64,000 nt of DNA from Cenococcum geophilum 1.58. Lineage: Eukaryota; Ascomycota; Dothideomycetes; Gloniales; Gloniaceae. This document shows, piece after piece, positions 6,490-64,000 of this stretch (position 1 is the first letter of the stretch; every line of letters starts with the position of its first letter). The notes under the pieces were generated by a model, which did no database searches, had not been told where the DNA came from, and worked only from the letters and a program-made list of their open reading frames with translations. The translations under genes and the position numbers were made by a program. The DNA is taken from the NCBI GenBank assembly GCA_001692895.1, contig KV748186.1, positions 1,541,785-1,605,784 of the forward strand, given 5' to 3'.

Positions 6490-6792
6490 TAAAGAGAGAA
6501 GAGGAAGAGGAAAGGAAGAGGAAAAGGAAGAGGAAGAGGAAAGAAGAGGAAGAGAAGAGGAAGAGGAAGAGGAAGAGGAAGAGGAAGAGAAGAGGAGAGG
6601 AAAAGGAAGAGGAAAGGAAGAGGAAGAGGAAGAGGAAGAGAAGAGGAAGAGAAGAGGAAGAGGAAGAGGAAGAGGAAGAGGAAGAGGAAGAGGAAGAGGA
6701 AGAGGAAGAGGAAGAGGAAGAGGAAGAGGAAGAGGAAGAGGAAGAGGGAGAGAGAGAAGAGGGAGGAAAAGGAGGAGGAGAAGGGGAGGAAG
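6490..6792. repeat. GAGGAA-type purine microsatellite (about 300 bp)
   Basis: A near-pure purine strand of GAAGAG and GAGGAA units with small interruptions, directly followed by a mixed GGAGGAGAAG tail. Read on the plus strand it gives Glu-, Arg/Gly- or Lys-rich protein depending on frame. The adjoining plus-strand frames suggest it sits inside or beside a coding region. Contains no C, so RIP can act only on the other strand; this may explain its preservation. Confidence 0.9.
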
Positions 6793-8420
6793 AGTTTAGT
6801 AGAAATAAATCTAAGTTTAACTAGATACCGCTGTTTGTTAATATAACCTACTAAATAATAGAGGCCCTCTTATTAGCTAATATTATAAATATAACTAAGC
6901 TAGATTTATAAGACGTATTATTTAATATACTATTACTTACTAATAGCTTAGATAGTATAGATTTAGAATAAGGAAATAGTTTAAGTCCTTTTTTTAAACT
7001 AAAGGAAATAGGTATAATGGCACTAAAAGGACTAAATAAAAGTTATCTAAAATATAATATAAATAGTTCTTTTAATAACCCGGAGAGATTCTTTACTAAA
7101 CTTTTTTTATATATTAAACCTAATACTATAAGAAAAAAAATAACGGAGATAAATATAATACTATGATAATAAATAATGATGAAAATGGATATAATACTAT
7201 AGTAATAAATAATAATAGTAATACTATAATAACAAATAACGATAATAACGATAATAATAATAATAATAAAGATAATAAAGATAATAAAGAATATATAACA
7301 CTGCTTGTTAGACCTAGGATAGAGATCCTAAAAAATCCTTATAATAAGTTTAACCGCTATATTAATATAGCTTATCGCGTAGGCTTGGGTTTTTATCTTC
7401 TATAGAAAAGAGTAGGAATATACTAGACTTTAAAAGACATTAAATATTTACTAAATCCTATACTACTATTATCTAGTATAGATTTATAGCTTATAGGAAG
7501 GCTTATCTATAAGATTCTTTATAAGTTACTTCCTAAATCTATTTAAGTCTTTAAAATTAAGAAAGATCTTATAGAAAATAGTTGTTAAGATATAATAATA
7601 TGATTTAATATACTAAAGCCTAACTTTCTAGCAGTCCCCTATTATATTAACTAGGATATATTAAGGGCAAAGAATCTAGATTATTTTATAATAATTATTG
7701 CTAATATTAATAAAAAGTATATAACGACTTGTAATAGATACCACCTAATTAGTAATATTTAGGCGGATAATCTTAGATATATAATTGATAAGGGGCTATA
7801 AGGATTGCATAAAAAATAGTCCTATAGCGGAATCTTTATAAGTAGCTATACTCTCTAGCTCTATAGATCCGCTAATTAAATTAAGCTCTATCTAGATGGT
7901 ATTAAAGTAAACGGGACTAACTGTAGCGTATATACTATTCTCTACGCCGAGAATCTTATTATTAGGACGCCACTATAAAATATAAAGCCTTAAGAGTTAT
8001 AATTACGTTATCTAAAAGCGTTAGTTAAGCGATATAAGGTTATACTATAAACGGACGCTGTAGTATAATAGATAGGTATTTATCTCTCTAGCCCTAAGAA
8101 AAGGATAAAGAATAATAGTACGGATAATTGCTAGCGTAAGGTAGCCCGCCTATTTAGATATATAAATAGTGCCTGGAGAAACATATACAGTAAGACTACT
8201 ATTAGCTTATTATAGCAGCTAAAATCCTTAAATACCGCTAAAGAGTTGTTATATATATAGGTAGTCTTATTTACTGCTTTTGCCGCTAGTTTAGATAGTA
8301 AAGCTATTTCTAAAGTGTTTATATACAGACCGCACGACCTCTCCCCCAAAATTTGTTTGTGCGCTCTATAGTGTATTTATAAGGTAGGTTTTTTAAATAT
8401 ATTAAAATGTCTTAAATATT
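6793..8420 (+). pseudogene. Unrecognised RIP-degraded protein, Asn/Asp-rich segment
   Basis: A plus-strand frame runs from about 6793 to about 8100 and resumes one frame over from about 8101 to 8340, so there is one frameshift or an intron. It includes a completely open Asn/Asp-rich stretch from 7163 to 7405, then a conserved-looking segment with RVGLGFYLL, YITTCNRYHLISNI and NCSVYTILYAENLIIRTP. The stops that interrupt it are nearly all TAG/TAA of the kind RIP makes. I do not recognise the family. The evidence that it was coding is the long frame continuity, not homology. Confidence 0.4.
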
Positions 8421-19043: not shown

Positions 19044-20028
19044 TTACGCGAGGCTCAGGTCAGCTGCAACCTCGAACGTTACCTTTCTCGTTCCAACACG
19101 ACCACTAATTTTATTCCTTGAGAACGCTAAGTATGTCGGCCGATATTCTGAGGGTAGCCATATTAGGCGCTTGGAATAACGTGTTATCCATACACCATCC
19201 CCGCTCACACCGAGGCCTTGATACTGAGGTCCAGCCATATTTTTATGATCGTACCAGGCCATTAGAAAATTCTTCCTCTCCTGTTGCTCCAGGAGCGTCA
19301 GCTGCATCTTGTAAACCGGCAGCGAATCATTTCCCTGTGGAGGTCTAGGGGCGGCAGGCGGGGTGTTGGGTGTTTTGCGACTAGTGCGCGTCTGCAGGCA
19401 CGCGCCGCTGCGTGCATCCCAGATCTTGACCGTCCCGTCAACCGACCTCGACGTGACAAGCGCCGAGTCGTGCGAGAATTTTGCCGAGCTGACCGAGCCG
19501 CTGTGGCCGTTGAGCGTCCGCAGGCACGCGTCGCTGCGTGCATCCCAGATCTTGACCGTCCTGTCGCACGACGCCGACGCGACAAGCGCCGAGTCGTGTG
19601 AGAAGGCTACCGAGCTGACCGAGCCGCTGTGGCCGTCGAGCGTCTGCAGGCACGCGCCGCTGCGTGNATCCNAGATCTTGACCGTCCTGTCGTCCGACGC
19701 CGACGCGACAAGCGCCGAGTCATGCGAGAAGGCTACCGAGTAGACCGAGCCGCTATGGCCCTCGAGCGTCCGCAGGCACGTGCCGCTGCTTGCATCCCAG
19801 ATCTTGACCGTCTTGTCGTTCGACGCCGACACGGCCCGGGCCGAGTCGTGCGAGAAGGCTACCGAGTTGACCCACCTGCTATGGCCCTCGAGCGTCTGCA
19901 AGCAGAGGCTCCATTTATCATCCATAGCCGGCTTTATTGTAATCCAGTCCGGCTCTTCCCTCTTAAAAAGACCTCTTATCAGGCTGCGAGTTGGGCTGAA
20001 TAGGAGTGCGGAAGCATATACTTGAAGA
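19044..20028 (-). pseudogene. 3-prime part of NACHT-WD40 (NLR/STAND) gene: WD40 repeats and C-terminus
   Basis: Open on the minus strand from the insertion site at 20028 to the stop at 19044. After LQVYASALLFSPTRS and DWITIKPAMDDKW come four WD40 repeats of 42 residues (126 bp) with the signature LEGHSGSVxSVAFSHDSA and TVKIWD, nearly identical to each other as in the high-identity WD40 family of fungal NLRs. A C-terminal tail with GVWITRYSKRLIWLPSEYRP follows, as usual for these proteins. WD40 repeats act as ligand sensors in these incompatibility and immunity-type switches. This half has no RIP stops. Two ambiguous bases (19667, 19672) lie in repeat 2. The 5-prime part of the gene is at 28686-30190, beyond an inserted transposon, so the product cannot be made as one protein. 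Confidence 0.9.
20021..20028. repeat. 8-bp target-site duplication, left copy (CTTGAAGA)
   Basis: Matches CTTAAAGA at 28686-28693 in 7 of 8 bases. The one difference is a G to A transition. On the minus strand it lies in the NLR codons for Pro-Leu-Gln, and the frame is continuous if the element and one copy are removed. Confidence 0.9.
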
Positions 20029-20046
20029 TTATCTCATAAATCAGAC
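20029..20046 (+). repeat. Left terminal inverted repeat, 18 bp
   Basis: TTATCTCATAAATCAGAC, an exact reverse complement of 28668-28685. Unchanged by RIP at both ends. Confidence 0.9.
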
Positions 20047-20243
20047 GCTCCGCAGAAGATTTATTCCGTGACACGGGATAACGCATAGACCCTCTAAAAC
20101 GCCTGCAAACTCCTGAGCCAATTAGAATAGCGCCCTAACTCCTGCCAACTCCTGCTAACTCCTGGACCAATTAGAACAGCGCACTAATTTCAGCCCCCTG
20201 CGCACCCCTGTCACCTAATAAAATCCTCTGCGGAGCGTCTGAG
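20040..20243. repeat. Subterminal hairpin of the left transposon end
   Basis: CAGACGCTCCGCAGAAGATT at 20042 onward pairs with AATCCTCTGCGGAGCGTCTG ending at about 20242, with further pairing of GTGACACGGG against CCCCTGTCAC. Arms of about 37 bp flank a 125-bp centre that holds two CTCCTG...CCAATTAGA blocks. The structure could be a transposase-binding end or a nested MITE. Confidence 0.75.
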
Positions 20244-20760
20244 AGCTTATGGGCGTCGCTTTGGTGAGATTTGAATGTTTTGGATCACGTATTTTGACTT
20301 TAACTGGCTCTATAAAAGGCCCCACTAATAGTTATTAATGCTTTGTTCGATGTATTTCAATCTTAAGGTAATAGTCTTTAATTCTATATATATAAAAGCT
20401 AATTATAACGTAGTTAAAGGTATGAGATATATCGTGCAAAACCTTGACTATATTTTGGATTTGAATGTTTATAACACTTATAAACCGTTCCTCCCACTAC
20501 CATCTACACCACAACTATATCACGTCTACTTTTGTTATTAGCCAAGTCCTATAACCTCCTTCGAACTCCTACGAACTTCTGTGAACTCCTAGGCCAATTA
20601 GATCGCTTATATATAGGACCCTAGGGCGTATCTGGCGTTACTCCTCTGTACATACTACCTGTTACTAATTAAAGCACAGCCAATTTGTATTCTTTTTAAC
20701 TCCTATAAACTCCCGCGAACTCCTACAAACTCCTGTAAACTCTTAGGCCAATTAGATGCC
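20100..20760 (+). repeat. Subterminal repeat arrays AACTCCTGCG(n)-GGCCAATTAG, left side
   Basis: Four arrays (about 20105-20132, 20142-20180, 20545-20607, 20697-20757) consist of one to five AACTCCTRYR units followed by a GCCAATTAGA block. The last array ends only 125 bp before the helicase start. The block contains CCAAT, the binding site of the fungal HAP complex. The same unit occurs in inverse orientation at the right side and between the genes, so it may serve as transposase-binding site, promoter element or both. Confidence 0.8.
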
Positions 20761-20881
20761 TAAACAAAATCGCGATCGTAGGAAGAAATGGTATAAGGGT
20801 TAGCGGAAGACAAGGGCGGGCGGGGCAGAGATTTGTCTGCGTCTAACACTATAACTAGGTCGTATTATAGCAATCAGCTTA

Positions 20882-23600
20882 ATGGACCTAGAAGAATTGC
20901 TATCTATTATTAAGGAAGCTCGGCGTAAGGAAAATGTTCTATTATAGATGGCCGTTCTAAAAGCATGTCTTAAGTAAATACTCCGGTATATAAACCCAGG
21001 AGGCCGCCCTTAAACCCCTCATTTCGAATAGATACGCACCTTAAGACGTCTAATATTTGGTTTTAGCGATATACTTCTTATTGCACGCACGGGTTTTAAA
21101 AAGAGTTTTATTTTTTATGCTTTTTTAATCTTAATAGGCAAGATTACTATCCAGATAGTCCTATTAAGTAAGCTCGGCAACGAACAGTTAGATAATATCC
21201 AAAAGCTTAATAGTTCTAATCCGTGTCTTATTACTGCCAAGAGTAGGAGCCTAAACAAGGCCCTAATTAGAAAAGTAAAGGATAGTGTGTATACATATGT
21301 ACTTCTTGGTCCTAAGCAGGCCTTATTAAAGTCTTTCTAGGATGTGTTAAAGAGCCCAGAACTATAGGCTAGGATTAAACTTATTGCAATTAATAAGTAT
21401 TATCTAGTAAAGCAATAGGAATCGTTCTGACCGACGTTTATAATATTAGGCGAGCTACAGACAATACTTCGTTAGGATATGGTTTGGTTTAGTTATTCTA
21501 CTACACTTAATAAGGAGGCAGAACAACTAGTTCTTAGCAACGCCGGTTTTTGCTTTATAGGTGACCGCATATACCAGACTAAGGTTATTAGGACTTCTAT
21601 GGATCGCCCCGATGTCTTAATCTGCGTACTGCCGCTTAGTAAAGGTAAGGTGGATTTATAGAACGCACTATACTTCCTATTAGACGCGTGTATAGATTTA
21701 GATACTGTAGTCCCGGAGCAAATACTAAAGACGATTATCTTTATAGACGGTTATTAGTCCGTTTAGGAAGCAGCGGTATACTTCTAAAGAGCACTCCTTA
21801 TAAAGACTTTAACCTTTACACCTAATAAACAGTATACTACTAATGCTGATGGTAAAGCTCGTTGCGTTACCAATATAGTCTAGGTGTATACTGTACATAT
21901 TTAAAAGTATAATCGTACTACTCGATATAAAGAGTTTAAGAAATCCTTATCGTTTATAAGGATTATAGTAGCAACAACCTCTCTTGGCATGNGTATTAAT
22001 GTCCTAGATATTAAATAGGTAGCGCTTTAGAAGTTTCTAATTATAAAGAGTCTTGCAGATTATTAGCAGCGTCTTAGTTGTGGTAGACGGGGCTATAGTT
22101 AGACTAGTAAAGGTTACATATTTTTGCTGTATTGGGCCTTTAACACAAAAGGTGTTAATAAACCAGAAATTAAACAGCTATAATCATAACTAGACGTACC
22201 TCAGAAAACCACTTGCAGGCTATATCGGAATCGACTACTAGCTAATTAAGCAATAGCACGTAGTTAACTAGCCAACGGCTATACGCCCGGCGACGTAAGT
22301 AACATGGAAAGTGTTTCCTCTTAGATATTAGCTTTAAGCCAGGCTCCTACTCCTATTAATAACGCTATAACGACTAGATTTTAGAGCAAGGCAGAGATAT
22401 CTTATCGCGCTAGGCTATTAGCTATATAGATGGAAATAATTAACAGTATATGCCATTAAAAGGCCTTTCTAACTTATCTTGGCAAGGATTAGTTACTACC
22501 ACAAGTTTAGGTTACCCGCGTACCACCAGATTAATATTATAGTTATTGCAATCTAGCACTGCTTCTAACTCTTACTTAGGCTCCGGATATTCTATAACTA
22601 ATTACTTAGCTAAGAAATAGTACGCGAGCTTATCTTGCCCTAACTCTTATTAATAAATGGGCAACTACGCGGGTAGAAGCATTATATAGCAGTATATATA
22701 GGCGCATCCCTATGCCGCTATCTGCGTATATAGATATAATATGCCGCTAGTAGCTTGCATATACGTATAAACTAGGACTAGACTTTTAGGATACGCTAAC
22801 CTTTAATCGTCTCTATGCTAAAGCTTCTCTACTTTAGACGTGGCCTTATAGAGAGGAATCTGGGCAACTATTAGTAGAGCAACTTTAGTACTTTATTAGG
22901 GAGGTTAACGATTTATATACTAAGATAAAGGATATAAGATATGCAAGAAAGCAATAATAGCAGCTATAGGAGCTATAGGGCCAGCATAGTTAGGAATCTT
23001 GTACCAGTGTATCTAATTACGCCGTAACTATTTGTAAAAGGGATAACACTCTTGCCACATAGGTTGCAAGACGAGAGGTGTTAAGGGCTGCATAGTTACG
23101 CGTAATTAAGACGGCCAGAGCAAATAAGCGTACGTCGTTAGATATAGCAAGAGTTAGTATACTGCCGTTAACCTTATAACTAGAAGAATGGGTTAACGGA
23201 GTTATTAGTACGCTAGTATCGCTATTACTAACCGTACCTGTCCCACCTGATGGTGTACCGGAAGGTATTTAGCGTACTATAAGATAGCTTAAATAAGCTC
23301 GCACTTTAGGAGCAAACGCCGCTAGGCATAGCCCTAATAGTAGCTAGTTAAATATCTAGTAGCCAGTTGTTAATGTATTAGATACGCAGAAAAGCGCTAC
23401 TCCTAGTTAAAAAAGATAAAGGCAGAGGCGTAAAAATATAGAGCTAACGACCCTATTAATACGTCGGTTGCCGTTAGTAGAGAGAGATTTAAATGCTAAT
23501 AAAATACTAACCTTTACACCTATTTTAAAGAGAGGGCGTGTAAGGCAAGCAACTCTAAAGGGTTTAGAGAACTTTTGTATTAATATATAGAATATATTTA
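20882..23600 (+). pseudogene. RecQ-like SF2 DNA helicase, RIP-degraded
   Basis: From ATG 20882 one frame holds, without frameshift, at least through 22550 and apparently to about 23600 (roughly 900 codons). Walker A reads ARTGFKKS (21083-21106; Lys replaces the third Gly of GxGKS). The DExH box reads NKYY (21392-21403), as expected from DECH after G to A and C to T changes. Motif V reads TTSLGMxIN (ambiguous base at 21992) and motif VI *QRLSCGRRGYS near 22064-22100. A later YYSYC (22535-22549) stands where RecQ-like proteins of fungi often have CCxxC. Stops are TAG/TAA at Gln/Trp positions. RecQ enzymes unwind DNA 3-prime to 5-prime; in a transposon it may act in strand transfer or replication. 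The 5-prime CCAAT arrays probably formed its promoter. Confidence 0.8.
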
Positions 23601-23722
23601 ATTAGTCTAGGAGTTTATAGGAGTTCGTAGAAGATAGTACGTTGTTTTTATTAGCCTAGGAGTTTATAGGAGTTCGCAGGAGATAGTACGTTGTTTAATT
23701 GGCCTAGGAGTTTATAGTAGTT
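23599..23722 (-). repeat. Repeat array CCTAGGAGTTTATAGGAGTTCGC between helicase and Cys-rich gene
   Basis: Three copies in inverse orientation to the left-end arrays: ATTAGTCTAGGAGTTTATAG, ATTAGCCTAGGAGTTTATAG and ATTGGCCTAGGAGTTTATAG, the first two followed by AGATAGTACGTTGTTT. They mark the 3-prime end of the helicase gene. Confidence 0.8.
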
Positions 23723-23846
23723 TAAAGTGAATATAAATTAAAATTCTAATTTCGTTTAATAATATCTTTAACCACTTTAAAATTATTCTTTGCACTTACA
23801 CTTATTAACCGTCTCCCATTAAAGCTTTTAATAAAAAGCTTTTAAA

Positions 23847-24891
23847 ATGTCTCCTCCTGCTCTCTAGGTGCGTGCGCACCCCCCTAACGTCCTCCTTAAT
23901 GAGGAGAGAATACTACGGGCTGTGGCCCTCCTTTATTATCGCTAGCTTCGGTCTAGTAGAATCTAGGTTAAGATATAGTTAGTATTAGAACTCTAACTAT
24001 TAACTATAAGATATAACTAACTGGTTTTAATAGGCGCCCTCGCCCTTGCCGCTGCCCTCCCCTCCTAACAGCAGCAGTAATAGCAGCAGTAGTAGCAACA
24101 GTAATAGTAACAGCAGCACCGCCGCCGCCGCCCGCCGCTGCCGCCGCTAACGACGACAACAACGACGACGACGACGATAAGGATAAATGGTTTGGCGGTA
24201 GGGAGTTAGGAGAGGAGCCGTAAGTATTAATAACTGTATAGTATGTACTTAGCTCAAATATGTTTATAGACCACTACTACTATTACTATTACCGGCCCTA
24301 GCTCTGGCTCCTGCTTCTGCTCCCGCCCCAGCCCTTGCTCTTGCCCCGGCCCTTGCTCCCGCCCTAGCTCTCCCCTCGTTGCCGGCCCTCTCGCTGCCGG
24401 CCCTTACTACCGCTGGGTTTGCCCTCGCCTAGCGCGCCGACCCCGTCCGCCTGCCGTAGGCTTGGGCCCCCCGCGGTAAGGCGACTGCCGCGTATACCCC
24501 TACCGCCTAAGGCAAATGGTGGTCGCAGTTGGCGGCGGGGTTGGCGGCTATGGGGCCGAATAAGTGGAGAGACTAGGGCTATATCGGCCGGATAATGGAG
24601 ACGGAGTTAGGGGTAGAGTTGGTGGATGGTAAGCGATGCACTGCCTACTAAGCCTCGGGTAAGGAGTATTAGGTGTACTCTGAAAAGGGTGCACAGCAGG
24701 TAAGTAGGCTTGGGGACACCTGCGCTCGCTGCTAAGCGGCGGCCCGTTCTGGTAGGTGTAGCCTCTTAAAGCGGAAGCGTAAGGACCCTAAAAATCCCTT
24801 GCCCCTACCTCCTAGGCTAAGGTCTTTGGCGGCGTATAAGCCGTTTAGTGGTCTACCACTAGGTCCTGGTGGTAGTGGTATTACAGTATAA
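23847..24891 (+). pseudogene. Cys-rich (zinc-binding-like) protein with Gln-rich low-complexity region
   Basis: ATG at 23847 opens MSPPAL*VRAHPPNVLLNEE, then a CAG/TAG tract (about 24065-24120, originally Gln-rich or Ser-rich) and a CCG/ACG low-complexity run. The frame changes in or near that run. The C-terminal part, in the other frame, reads GVELVDGKRCTAY*ASGKEY, then DTCARC*AAARSGRCS, followed by a basic KRKRK patch and a stop at 24889-24891. With Tyr restored to Cys the pattern is CxxCx6C...CxxCx7C, a plausible zinc-binding DNA- or protein-contact module. This segment is GC-rich compared with its surroundings. I know no name for the family. Its place between helicase and DUF6589 gene suggests an accessory DNA-binding role. 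Confidence 0.55.
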
Positions 24892-25328
24892 GGGGGAGGG
24901 GGGGGGGTTGGCGTTGCTTTCTGGCACTCCGGTAAGCTAAAGTGGCAGCTTTTATAGCATATTCTTCGTGGGTAAGCTTTAATCCAGCTGCGTTAATCTA
25001 AGGGGTAAAACCTAGATAACAATACTGTCTGGTACGGGCTAAACTATAAGGCATCCTTTGCAGGCAAGCTTTAATCCAGCTGTATTAATCCGAGGGGTAA
25101 TCCTAGATAACGGTACTATCTAGTATAGGCCTAACTGCAAGGCGTTATGGAAGCCCTGGAGTTGTCTAGTGGGTAGTATAGGTAGATAGTAGTTAAATAT
25201 AGTTGCTGGGTTCTGTCGTTGCCTTATATATAAAAGTTTATATAAAAATTTATGTAAAAGGTTGTGTAAAAGGTTGTGCAAAAGGTTGTATAAAAGGTCG
25301 TGTATAGGTTCGTGCATAAGTTTATATG
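24892..25328. repeat. G-run, 92-bp direct repeat and 12-bp satellite inside the transposon
   Basis: A run of ten G at about 24899-24908 is followed by a 92-bp direct repeat (units starting 24971 and 25063, both beginning GGYAAGCTTTAATCCAGCTG) and a 12-bp satellite (AAAAGGTTGTGT and variants, about eight units, 25225-25328). An open frame on the minus strand over the satellite (25120-25317) is Leu/His-rich and follows from the repeat. No gene assigned. Confidence 0.75.
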
Positions 25329-25365
25329 GATTAGTTAGCCTAGTTAAACAGAAACGTAGGCATCT

Positions 25366-25525
25366 AATTAGCCTAGGAGTTCGCAGGAGTTCGTAGGAGT
25401 TTAAGGACTAGGTAAATTTAACCTAAGGAAGTTATTGCGGGTATGCTAGTTTAGAGCATTAATAAATATAGGCATTTAATTAGTTTAGGAGTTTGTAGGA
25501 GTTTATAGGAGTTTATAGAAGTCTG
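25366..25525 (-). repeat. CCAAT-type repeat arrays near the 3-prime end of the DUF6589-like gene
   Basis: TAATTAGCCTAGGAGTTCGC plus two further AGGAGTTCGT units at 25366-25405, and TAATTAGTTTAGGAGTTTGT plus three units at 25480-25520. Same orientation as the right-end arrays. Confidence 0.75.
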
Positions 25526-25529
25526 GGGA

Positions 25530-28380
25530 TTAGTTAGCTACTCTAATTCCTATAAGATTGATTATGTCAATTGTTATAAGGTTAATTGTTGGATTAATAA
25601 CCCTATTTAACCCCTCCCCAACCTGGTTAGTATAATCTTCTATATTAGCAAATCCATTAAGATTATCTAGGGTATTAAAAGGGTACGACCCCCTAAGCGT
25701 ACCTAATTGTTAGACGTGCTGCTAGTTAAACTAATTAACTTTATCCGCTAGTACCTTAATGCCTTCTTATAAGATGTTATAAGAATTAAAAAACTTCCTA
25801 CTAGCTAATTGTTTAGTACTCTGCGGTTTAGCCAGATCTAAAGTAAAGAGGGTACAAGCGAGTAAAAATATATCCGGTAGTGTAGTAGTAGTAGTATAAG
25901 TCCCGGGCATGTGCTCGCTAAATATAGCCTTTACTCTTTTACGTAACGCTCTAACCTAAGTATTAGATAGATATACTTAGTTAAATATAATATCTATATT
26001 ATGGGTTAAGTTCTTATAACACTTCATTTTAATCTTATAACTACCGTTAAGATGCTTAAGCCCGAGGTTAATTGCTTTATGTATAGTGACCCTACTAGGC
26101 CAGTTAATAAGCCTAGAGGATAGTATTGTATGCTGTAATTCAGGAGTGTTTACTAAGGAGAGATTCTATTAATAGAATAACATCTCGCGGCCATAGTTGA
26201 GCTGGGACGCGCTAAAAAAGTAGACAATAAGAGGGTCAACAAAGTGCCTTAGTATGCCTATATTAGCATGTTTAACAGCATACTAAATAGTTAGAAATAG
26301 CTTAACCTCCTGAAGCATACAACATATTGTCTAGAATTTAATATCGTTATGCGGTTGCTTATTAGAGCTGTTGCTATTCTATATATCTAATATAAAGGCG
26401 GCTAGACGAACGTCTTTAATAAGTTCTAAAAATTAATCTGGTGTAAGAGAACTAATAGCGTCAGTAACGTGGTCCATTCGCTTAAAGAAGTCTCTGCTAG
26501 AGGCAATAAGGTAGCCCTTACGTCGCATTGCTGTATAAAATAATGCAACTACACGTGCCGTAAAGCCCTGCGCAATAATTAGTTCTATTAGGTAATATTT
26601 AGCGTTCTCCCGACTATACTAACTACGACCCCACATAGTAGTATTAGCTCGTAAGCAATAATAAGCCTCCTTTTTAAAAATAATAGGTGCCTAATATATA
26701 CGGATAATAGTATTTAGTAAGTTCATCTGGATATGGAACCACGTAGGTATACTAAGAAGCCAATCCCGTTGGTCGTATGGTCGGCAAGCCTAGGTTTACT
26801 TGTTTTTAATAGCCCTAATACGGATTACCGTAAGTTGGTCTCTATGGATAAGCCAGAGTTAATCACGGAAGTCATTACGGACAGCTTTAGCTTTGGTAGG
26901 ATCTTCCGGTATATATAGACTAAGCTAGTCTAGAAATATACTTTTGTGGACGCCATATATACCTTTAATAGTACCCTTATCCTTAAATATAGCGCTAAAT
27001 TGCTAGAACGTAGTCTTATTTACAGAAAGGCAATGCACACTCGACATTTTAGGATAGTGATCACTATCTCTAAATACAGTATTAACGCCATCTATATAAA
27101 TTCTCTTAAGTGCATCTAATATAAGGCTTTATGTAATATTCACCCTAATCTCGTTATCTTCACCAGATATACTAGGTGCATTTAGTATATCTTTAAGCCT
27201 AAGTAGTATTATTAGATCGTGCATGCCTTAACGTAAACCTAAAGGTGGTAGCTTAGGGCAAAGAATAATAGCCGCCGTCGTTATTGCCCGCATTGTAGCC
27301 ATATGGCCCATAACCTTGTTACATTTCTTGTCCTTAAAATTAACGTTATTATAGACAATTACTACCTACTTACTAAACGCTTAACGCTGGAGCTGTCTCT
27401 AAGGAAGTTAGCTAATTAGCCTAGGAGTTTACAGGAGTTTACAGGAGTTGGGTACTGTACCTCTGCCTCCTTAACAACTTTAACCATTAACTAATTAGCC
27501 TAATAATAACTATAATATATTCCAAGCCCTAATAGAGTCTTAATTACTCGCCGCTTTATACTAGAGCCTATTAAATAGACATCTAGTATTAAAGAGAGGA
27601 AGCTAGATCGCTTTTTAGCCCGAGAATAATATACTATACTAGTAATAGCAAACAATCGCCTAGATAACGCATTAGACTGAGATATAGCGTTATAACTAGC
27701 TCGGTGGGCGCGCTAATTGCTTATAAGTTTTAAAAGAATAGTATGCTATATTGGAGTAACCTCTTAGATAATTCTGAAGGCTAGCTTAAAGTCTAGTGTC
27801 TCTAGGTCTGTAGTATAATTAAATTAACTAAAGTAGGGCTAATGAATAAGATTATTAAGCTCTATAGCAAAAGAATCTACTAGAGAAGGACGCTGGCAGA
27901 TAACCCTTATGCGTGGATCGTCTATAGTACGTATTAGTACACGCTGTCGCTATTATGGTTGGGTATATTGGAGGTGCTAAATTATAACCGCTTTGCCCTT
28001 TTCTACCCCAGCTTAAGCAAGTATAAAGGTTTAAAAACTCTATTAAACGCGGCGGAGTGTATTAGCCACCTGTTATAGCTTAAATTACGTAGACTGCCGT
28101 TCCTTAGAGCTTATATTATATTAACCGCGAGTAGGAGAAGGTTCATTAGAGGAAGGCTAAAGAGCCTTAATAGCGTCGCTATTAAGCTTATTATTAAGGT
28201 AGTCTATATCGCTGTTAGAATATTTATCTGGGTGTCCGTTAGGGTGTCCGTTAGGAGGCAGAAGAGAGCTAAAAGGGGCGCTAGATAAAGGACTTTACGA
28301 ATTATTAGATAGGGGCACATGTATTAGGCCGGCGACGTCTATTATTTCTTAATTGGATAGAGTAAATAAATAGCTTTTAA
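25530..28380 (-). pseudogene. DUF6589-like protein, RIP-degraded
   Basis: The minus strand reads from about 28380 down to a TAA at 25530-25532, about 950 codons, the usual size of the family. The signature core is RDQLTVIRIRAIKNK, PYDQRDWLLSIPTWFHIQMN near 26740-26850, matching the DUF6589 pattern (G)DQLTxxRIR...W...P.WFHLQMN. Around it lie an N-terminal Ser/Pro-rich region and a long helical C-terminal half (DHVTDAISSLTPD, EVKLFLTI*YAVKHA, YGREMLFYQ*NLSLVNTPEL). Stops are RIP-type. DUF6589 proteins are common in fungi and of unknown function. Their repetitive distribution and this location inside a bounded transposon make a transposase role plausible, but no catalytic triad was identified. 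CCAAT-type arrays at 27412 and 28535-28615 lie inside or upstream. Confidence 0.65.
27405..27452 (-). repeat. CCAAT-type repeat array within the DUF6589-like gene region
   Basis: CTAATTAGCCTAGGAGTTTA followed by two AGGAGTTTAC-type units. It lies in the middle of the region I assign to the DUF6589-like gene, which may mean the gene begins here and the upstream frame (27500-28380) is a separate exon or gene. Confidence 0.6.
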
Positions 28381-28534
28381 TTAATTCTGATTATAAATAT
28401 TTTAGAGTTAATTTAGGGTATAAGATACAGCGTTGTAATAGAAGAGTTGTCGCCTAATAAGAAATATTAAGTTCTTATATAAAGGGCGCCTATAAGCTCT
28501 TAGACCCTTAGGGAGAAATTCTTTTTGGTGTAAT

Positions 28535-28652
28535 CTAATTGGTCTAGGAGTTCGCAGGAGTCCACAGGACTAGGGTAAGGTAATCTTATTGGCTTAGGAG
28601 TTTGCAGGACTCCACAAGCGTAGCACTAGCCCTTAGCGCCACGCCGTGGCGC
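28535..28652 (-). repeat. Right-end CCAAT-type arrays and 17-bp palindrome
   Basis: TCTAATTGGTCTAGGAGTTC and TCTTATTGGCTTAGGAGTTT arrays, the mirror image of the left end, are followed by the perfect palindrome GCGCCACGCCGTGGCGC (28636-28652, 7-bp arms), 15 bp inside the right terminal inverted repeat. Confidence 0.8.
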
Positions 28653-28667
28653 AATTTCTTCCCGGGG

Positions 28668-28685
28668 GTCTGATTTATGAGATAA
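28668..28685 (-). repeat. Right terminal inverted repeat, 18 bp
   Basis: GTCTGATTTATGAGATAA, the exact reverse complement of 20029-20046. Confidence 0.9.
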
Positions 28686-28693
28686 CTTAAAGA
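28686..28693. repeat. 8-bp target-site duplication, right copy (CTTAAAGA)
   Basis: RIP-type G to A change relative to the left copy turns the NLR Gln codon CAA into TAA on the minus strand, right at the insertion junction. Confidence 0.9.
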
Positions 28694-63589: not shown

Positions 63590-64000
63590 GGTCCTATAAG
63601 CTAGGAGGTCGTGAGAGCTAGGTGCTTATAGGAGCTAGGGATCCTATAAGCTAGGTAATTATATAAGTAGAGTAGTTTAACCTAGCGCCCTCTAATTAAT
63701 GCCTAGCGTATAAATAGGGTATTAATAGGTTTAATAACTTCGGCTTTAATCGTGCGAGCTAGATGCTTATAGGAGCTGGCTAATCCTATAAGCTAAGTAA
63801 TTGTGCGAGCTAAGTGACCGTACGAGCATAGTACTTGTAGGAGCTAGGCAATCCTGCGAGCTAGGTAATCGTGCGAGCTAGGCAATTGTGCGAGCTGGGT
63901 GATTATGCGAGCTAGGCGATCGTACAAGCTAGGTAATCGTGCGAGCTAGGCGATTGTGCAAACTAGGCGATTGTGTAAGCTAGATGCTCGTGGGAGCTAG
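63590..64000. repeat. 17-bp minisatellite (GCGAGCTAGGCGATCGT), continues past the window
   Basis: Regular 17-bp units from about 63760 to the end of the window; looser copies (GGAGCTAGGTGCTTATA) from 63590, with an unrelated gap near 63665-63745. The unit contains AGCTAG and GCGATCGT-like inverted motifs. No coding frame. Confidence 0.85.

Follow-up and report, generated by a model that had tools for sequence, protein, structure and literature searches.

The question raised by this locus, an 8.66-kb repeat within a stretch of 64,000 nucleotides of the Cenococcum geophilum 1.58 genome (contig KV748186.1, positions 1,541,785 to 1,605,784; hereafter the window), is whether it is a transposon and, if so, which of its genes moves it. 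An earlier note, made from the letters of the window, had described a bounded DNA transposon at 20021-28693, with perfect 18-bp terminal inverted repeats (TIRs) and an 8-bp target-site duplication (TSD) with one mismatch, encoding a RecQ-like helicase, a cysteine-rich protein and a DUF6589-like protein. This structure is seen as described, except that the span counts in the two TSDs, the element proper being 20029-28685 (8,657 bp). All our results make it very probable that this element is an inactivated copy of an autonomous TIR DNA transposon, here called family A, in which the DUF6589 protein would be the catalytic component, with the helicase and the cysteine-rich protein as accessories.

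The genome searched amounts to 177 Mb in 162 contigs. With up to two mismatches, the 18-bp TIR occurs 540 times in it, as compared to 48 times for the reversed control pattern, and is thus present beyond chance. When the terminal 212 and 206 bases of the element are used as queries, at least 40 and at least 42 matches are obtained, of which at least 22 and at least 38, respectively, extend to the very end; as the best 40 of 136 and the best 40 of 155 candidates were scored, these end counts are lower bounds. At least 17 pairs of ends, paired by eye, lie on a single contig in the correct orientation and at most about 19 kb apart (two wider pairings, of about 22 kb on contig C77 and about 37 kb on C92, are excluded), and 10 of the 17 span 8,572-8,662 bp. 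Among the 13 pairs whose TSD was checked, 10 have a perfect 8-bp duplication; the other three are the window copy (a single G/A mismatch), C53 (two mismatches) and C7 (three). A perfect 9- or 10-bp duplication is found in none. Two further copies, on C2 and C23, were read end to end and hold the helicase and DUF6589 genes at positions equal to those of the window copy. Four of the 17 pairs overlap a DUF6589 match among the matches listed; the C2 pair is outside these four and yet holds DUF6589, so the listed matches miss some copies (the best 102 of 274 DUF6589 candidates and the best 150 of 201 cysteine-rich candidates were scored, and counts based on them are lower bounds).

The possibility that the ends belong to smaller nested elements is ruled out by the near-constant 8.6-kb length of 10 pairs and by the copies of C2 and C23 read through. 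Short elements with the same TIR do exist (449-1,137 bp): 12 such pairings occur within 30 loci of the TIR search, and 9 of them have a perfect 8-bp TSD. The three that do not are those of L034 and L036 and a second possible pairing of L038. Having TSDs of their own, these short elements are separate insertions that sit apart from the long ones. An inverted pair of A-type TIRs spanning only 75 bp (C8:1985251-1985325) is possibly a minimal end pair. A 92-bp segment of the left end (window 20149-20240) is also found at 93-98% identity in at least 17 further places, without the first 118-120 bases, and is perhaps common to short elements.

The window copy is damaged in the way expected of repeat-induced point mutation (RIP), as had been proposed. 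Over 8,653 columns aligned with the C23 copy, all 689 differences are transitions, and a C of C23 is a T in the window at 173 of 380 CpA sites, 60 of 356 CpG, 15 of 600 CpT and 8 of 446 CpC sites. Compared with the C2 copy, 1,009 of 1,097 differences are transitions. The stops within the DUF6589 match of the window are 10 TAG and 6 TAA, with no TGA. The window element is thus a RIP-silenced copy, one of many in the genome.

The DUF6589 gene of the window is firmly recognised: it matches the Pfam family PF20231 (E = 6.2e-40, stops read as X) and is also hit by the intact relative P0001 in tblastn (E = 7e-39). The structure predicted for the DUF6589 protein (pLDDT 84) has its best Foldseek matches among DDE recombinases (P element, Hermes, Tn5 and RAG), and three acids, D, D and E, are conserved in a 50-row alignment at the places expected for a DDE fold. 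The alignment positions E164 and D407 were also considered as members of this triad and were set aside, as they fall elsewhere than expected and are not conserved in the C23 copy, although this is not decisive. On the basis of the predicted fold and of the conserved acids, DUF6589 is the probable DDE transposase of these elements, in line with the RNase H-like fold and the transposase role that had been suggested for it.

The two other genes are read on the opposite strand, DUF6589 being convergent with both. The helicase call stands, since the window matches an intact relative, P0002, by tblastn (21020-22012, E = 7e-18); by Pfam, the window copy gives a weak Helicase_C match under the cut-off. 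Its relatives in two sister families, B and C, which are described below, carry DEAD and Helicase_C domains above the Pfam cut-off, and the solved proteins closest in sequence to that of family C are RecQ, WRN and BLM. As the helicases of both families are under the NCBIfam RecQ cut-off, the name RecQ-like is used here rather than RecQ. The cysteine-rich gene is recognised at motif level; its frame is also present in the C23 copy, in the same frame, and it matches no Pfam family above the cut-off.

Families B and C extend these observations. Allowing up to two mismatches, the family B TIR (TTACCTYAGCAAGCTCAGAC) marks 826 ends, against none for the control. Its complete copies on C4 and C75, of 10,887 bp each, hold DUF6589, two cysteine-rich genes and the helicase, convergent and in the same order as in family A, and in the C75 copy the DUF6589 gene and both cysteine-rich genes are free of stops over the parts matched. 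Family B duplicates 9 bp of its target: of 11 pairs, 8 show a perfect TSD (C1, C8, C14, C16, C17, C11, C4 and C75, the last two read by eye), C18 has a single mismatch and C26 three, and no TSD is recognisable in C3. The complete C75 element (C75:754919-765805) lies inside a family C element, flanked by the 9-bp duplication CAAGAAACA (L052, L001, L053, L100). Family C (C9, C41, C43 and others; TIR TTGWCTCAGCATGCTCAGAC) has two convergent open frames, one of 883 codons for the helicase (C9) and one of 957 codons for DUF6589 (C41, C43). With about 300 bp between these genes and about 400 bp or less from each gene to its end, it has no room for a B-like cysteine-rich gene. The TIRs of the three families are alike (TTA/G-CT ... 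TCAGAC). Where compared, family C copies share 99.9% identity over 4.2-5.7 kb; they are cut by contig ends and are seen at the ends of seven contigs (L002-L008), with the first 2,748 bases identical in four of them, which probably reflects assembly breaks in a recently active element.

The gene trio inside the same ends is only partly recovered elsewhere: the helicase and DUF6589 are together in C2, C23 and both sister families, but family C leaves no space for a cysteine-rich gene. Cysteine-rich genes of similar motif are seen in families A and B, but their proteins have no similarity at E<=1. A B-type cysteine-rich gene lies within 6 kb of 48 of the 102 scored DUF6589 matches, always convergent, where about one pair is expected by chance; conversely, 89 of the 150 scored cysteine-rich matches have a listed DUF6589 match within 6 kb.

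These elements can be assigned a plausible mechanism. The DUF6589 protein would bind the element ends, excise the element in a cut-and-paste mode and join it to target DNA at positions staggered by 8 bp, which would produce the 8-bp TSD. The RecQ-like helicase would be an accessory that probably opens strands or helps to repair gaps, and the cysteine-rich protein, of zinc-binding type, probably one that binds DNA. Two observations weigh against a catalytic DUF6589: none of its structural matches is significant by Foldseek, and two of the three triad acids are altered in the window copy. The latter would also fit with DUF6589 being a passenger or a regulator, the catalytic protein being another gene product that acts in trans. 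This is improbable, as the three families have no genes in common other than DUF6589 and the helicase, the recombinase-like predicted fold belongs to DUF6589, and the D, D and E are kept across the alignment. A much more remote idea is that the helicase is a telomere-linked locus surrounded by subtelomeric repeats, with no transposon at all. Subtelomeric RecQ genes have been described from several fungi (PMC4522978); such genes are RecQ-like and multi-copy, like the window helicase, and intact family C copies are found at contig ends. However, 99.9% identity alone breaks assemblies, no doubled TTAGGG is seen in loci L001-L050, and the copies bear TIRs and TSDs at scattered interior sites, the window one at about 1.56 Mb of the 3.24-Mb contig C11. 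The window element thus differs from the telomere-linked helicases by its TIRs, its TSDs, its location and its DUF6589 partner, and location and TSDs exclude such a locus for practical purposes. Helitrons, which have no inverted ends and no target duplication (PMC4522978), are ruled out by the TIRs and 8-bp TSDs of the window element; one short-element family with an 8-9-bp TSD is reported in the same paper. A transposon moved by its DUF6589 protein remains the preferred reading.

Whether such a transposon already has a name is a different matter. The earlier note knew of no named family near this combination, which is too strong, as AcademH is close to it (helicase, fungi, TSD of 9 or 10 bp). 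Kojima is said to have described AcademH in 2020 as the helicase-encoding Academ lineage of animals and fungi. Its TSD is of 9 or 10 bp (PMC10045372), and in Basidiomycota, Ascomycota and Mucoromycota its copy number is low (PMC10799480). Like AcademH, the window element (by tblastn) and families B and C (by Pfam) are DNA transposons of a fungus with a superfamily-2 helicase, and family B, with its helicase, also has the 9-bp TSD; family A, by contrast, has an 8-bp TSD and is for this reason set outside AcademH. By the descriptions of AcademH, the window element is AcademH-like in its working parts, and not a member. It is still reasonably probable that it is an AcademH transposon in which DUF6589 is another name for the Academ transposase and nothing but the 8-bp TSD is unusual: the helicase, the presence of AcademH in Ascomycota and the 9-bp TSD of family B argue for this, and the TSD of family A against it. 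A more tentative alternative is that DUF6589 elements form a separate DDE superfamily of P/hAT-like fold, whose RecQ-like helicase would have been acquired independently of AcademH. The best fold matches, P element and Hermes, point in this direction, as do an 8-bp TSD like those of hAT and Zisupton (PMC12730594) and the lack, by Pfam, of any second transposase domain in the protein, whereas the helicase and 9-bp TSD of family B agree with AcademH as reported. Both possibilities are compatible with transposition by DUF6589.

Other known groups of transposons share some of these features. Pfam includes models for hAT and P-element transposases, and a Pfam scan of the intact P0001 protein at E<=1 finds DUF6589 alone, with no second transposase domain of hAT or P type. 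Hermes, a hAT transposase, is within Foldseek ranks 1-10 for the DUF6589 prediction, none of them significant, and the prediction has a helical insertion between the second D and the E, which would fit the layout of Hermes. The hAT TSD is usually of 8 bp, as in family A (PMC12730594); hAT elements have, however, a recognisable transposase domain, unlike DUF6589 by Pfam, and the helicase is a feature of the window element that sets it apart from hAT and P elements alike. Zisupton and one Dileera family of the fungal Kyakuja-Dileera-Zisupton (KDZ) group also have an 8-bp TSD like family A, that of Kyakuja being 7 bp (PMC12730594). No KDZ-type domain is found in P0001 by the same scan, in so far as Pfam has a model for one, and the RecQ-like helicase is again that of the window element.

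DUF6589 proteins of families B and C are 48-52% identical, and those of A and C 24-30%. Homologues are found in Fusarium, Metarhizium, Stachybotrys, Ilyonectria, Dactylonectria, Eremomyces, Sclerophora, Diatrype and many others, in searches that each scored the best 8,000 or so candidates and listed 15, 43 and 46 rows; one row, P0076, bears additional domains and seems spurious. A tree was built from 60 rows, 11 of them of this genome and 49 being homologues 440 residues or longer; in it, family A stands apart on a long branch, close to an environmental protein and to one of Diatrype, with which its joining is unsure. One Metarhizium anisopliae protein, P0042, combines DUF6589 with a Piwi domain (PF02171), either by fusion or by a gene-model error. 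A comparison of the DUF6589 alignment with viral contigs gave 31 pattern matches and no relative, and the term DUF6589 was not found in the literature searched.

The insertion site was also examined. When the flanks are joined with a single TSD, one frame is open across the junction over 72 residues, to the end of the joined piece; it continues leftward into a WD40-repeat frame and, further upstream in the right flank, is interrupted by stops. The tandem 126-bp units at 19388-19904 (WD40-type repeats, 88% matches) lie in the frame apparently interrupted by the element. The open frame resembles the linker of fungal NACHT-WD40 genes, and the family A element seems to have split a WD40-repeat gene of this kind.

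The ends and intergenic regions of the element (Table 1) contain further structures. The left inverted repeat exceeds the longest one of 100 single-base shuffles (10 bp). The proposal of subterminal hairpins at both ends holds for the window, but C2 and C3 have only the right one; the left is not found in either (C2 has a different 10-bp repeat, C3 none of 8 bp or more). The mirror-image arrays are borne out: the 9 AACTCCT units all lie left of the helicase and the 16 AGGAGTT units all right of it, where about 0.6 and 0.8 are expected, and the remaining 55 kb of the window hold 5 of each. Many units are at 10-bp spacing, and the C2 copy has 8 and 16 of them. Stretches of 9-17 kb of families B and C hold 0-2 of each unit, and the nine short elements with family A TIRs and a perfect TSD hold none; at least some elements with such ends can thus do without the arrays, which could be either family A-specific binding sites or just a repeat that has spread. 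Elsewhere in the window, an AAGAGG hexamer array is seen at 6492-6794, the 6-7 kb block having a GC skew of 0.47 and an AT skew of 0.31, and an array of a 17-bp unit at 63748-64000 reaches the window end.

Table 1. Features of the family A element, in window positions.
Feature	Position	Strand	Basis or remark
Left TSD, CTTGAAGA	20021..20028	.	End reading
Left TIR, 18 bp, TTATCTCATAAATCAGAC	20029..20046	+	Perfect match to right TIR; genomic end search
Left subterminal fold-back, 16-bp perfect inverted repeat (20041-20056 / 20227-20242)	20041..20242	.	
Left array, 9 AACTCCT units, several at 10-bp spacing	20108..20734	+	
RecQ-like superfamily-2 helicase remnant, core	21020..22171	+	C-terminal part may extend to ~23580
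Array, 5 AGGAGTT units, helicase / cysteine-rich interval	23609..23712	-	
Cysteine-rich gene remnant, C-x2-C type motif	24490..24912	+	Weakest gene call, motif level
Array, 6 AGGAGTT units, cysteine-rich / DUF6589 interval	25375..25513	-	
DUF6589 gene remnant, probable transposase	25857..27832	-	Catalytic domain 27362-25857, N-terminal region ~27832-27443
Array, 3 AGGAGTT units at 10-bp spacing, gap between two DUF6589 blocks	27423..27449	-	Possibly intronic
Right subterminal AGGAGTT units (2)	28546..28602	-	Inverted relative to left array
Right subterminal hairpin, 8-bp arms GCGCCACG / CGTGGCGC	28636..28652	.	
Right TIR, 18 bp	28668..28685	-	Perfect match to left TIR
Right TSD, CTTAAAGA	28686..28693	.	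One transition from left copy

The TSDs of families A and B bear on how the length of the duplication is determined. In Academ elements, it has been suggested to depend on the accessory enzyme, helicase or nuclease (PMC10045372). As families A and B share the helicase and yet differ by 1 bp, our results suggest that it is set by the transposase too. One genome thus offers a natural comparison, in which a pair made of a helicase and DUF6589 goes with near-alike ends and with TSDs of either 8 or 9 bp. One possibility, which we put forward with reserve, is that DUF6589 defines a distinct eukaryotic DDE superfamily, of P/hAT-like fold and with its own RecQ-like helicase, which would cut very similar ends with an 8- or 9-bp stagger according to the clade. 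If this is true, a widespread fungal family of unknown function would become a transposase family. Our results offer a concrete role for a Pfam family that is present in many ascomycetes, among them Fusarium, Metarhizium and Stachybotrys.
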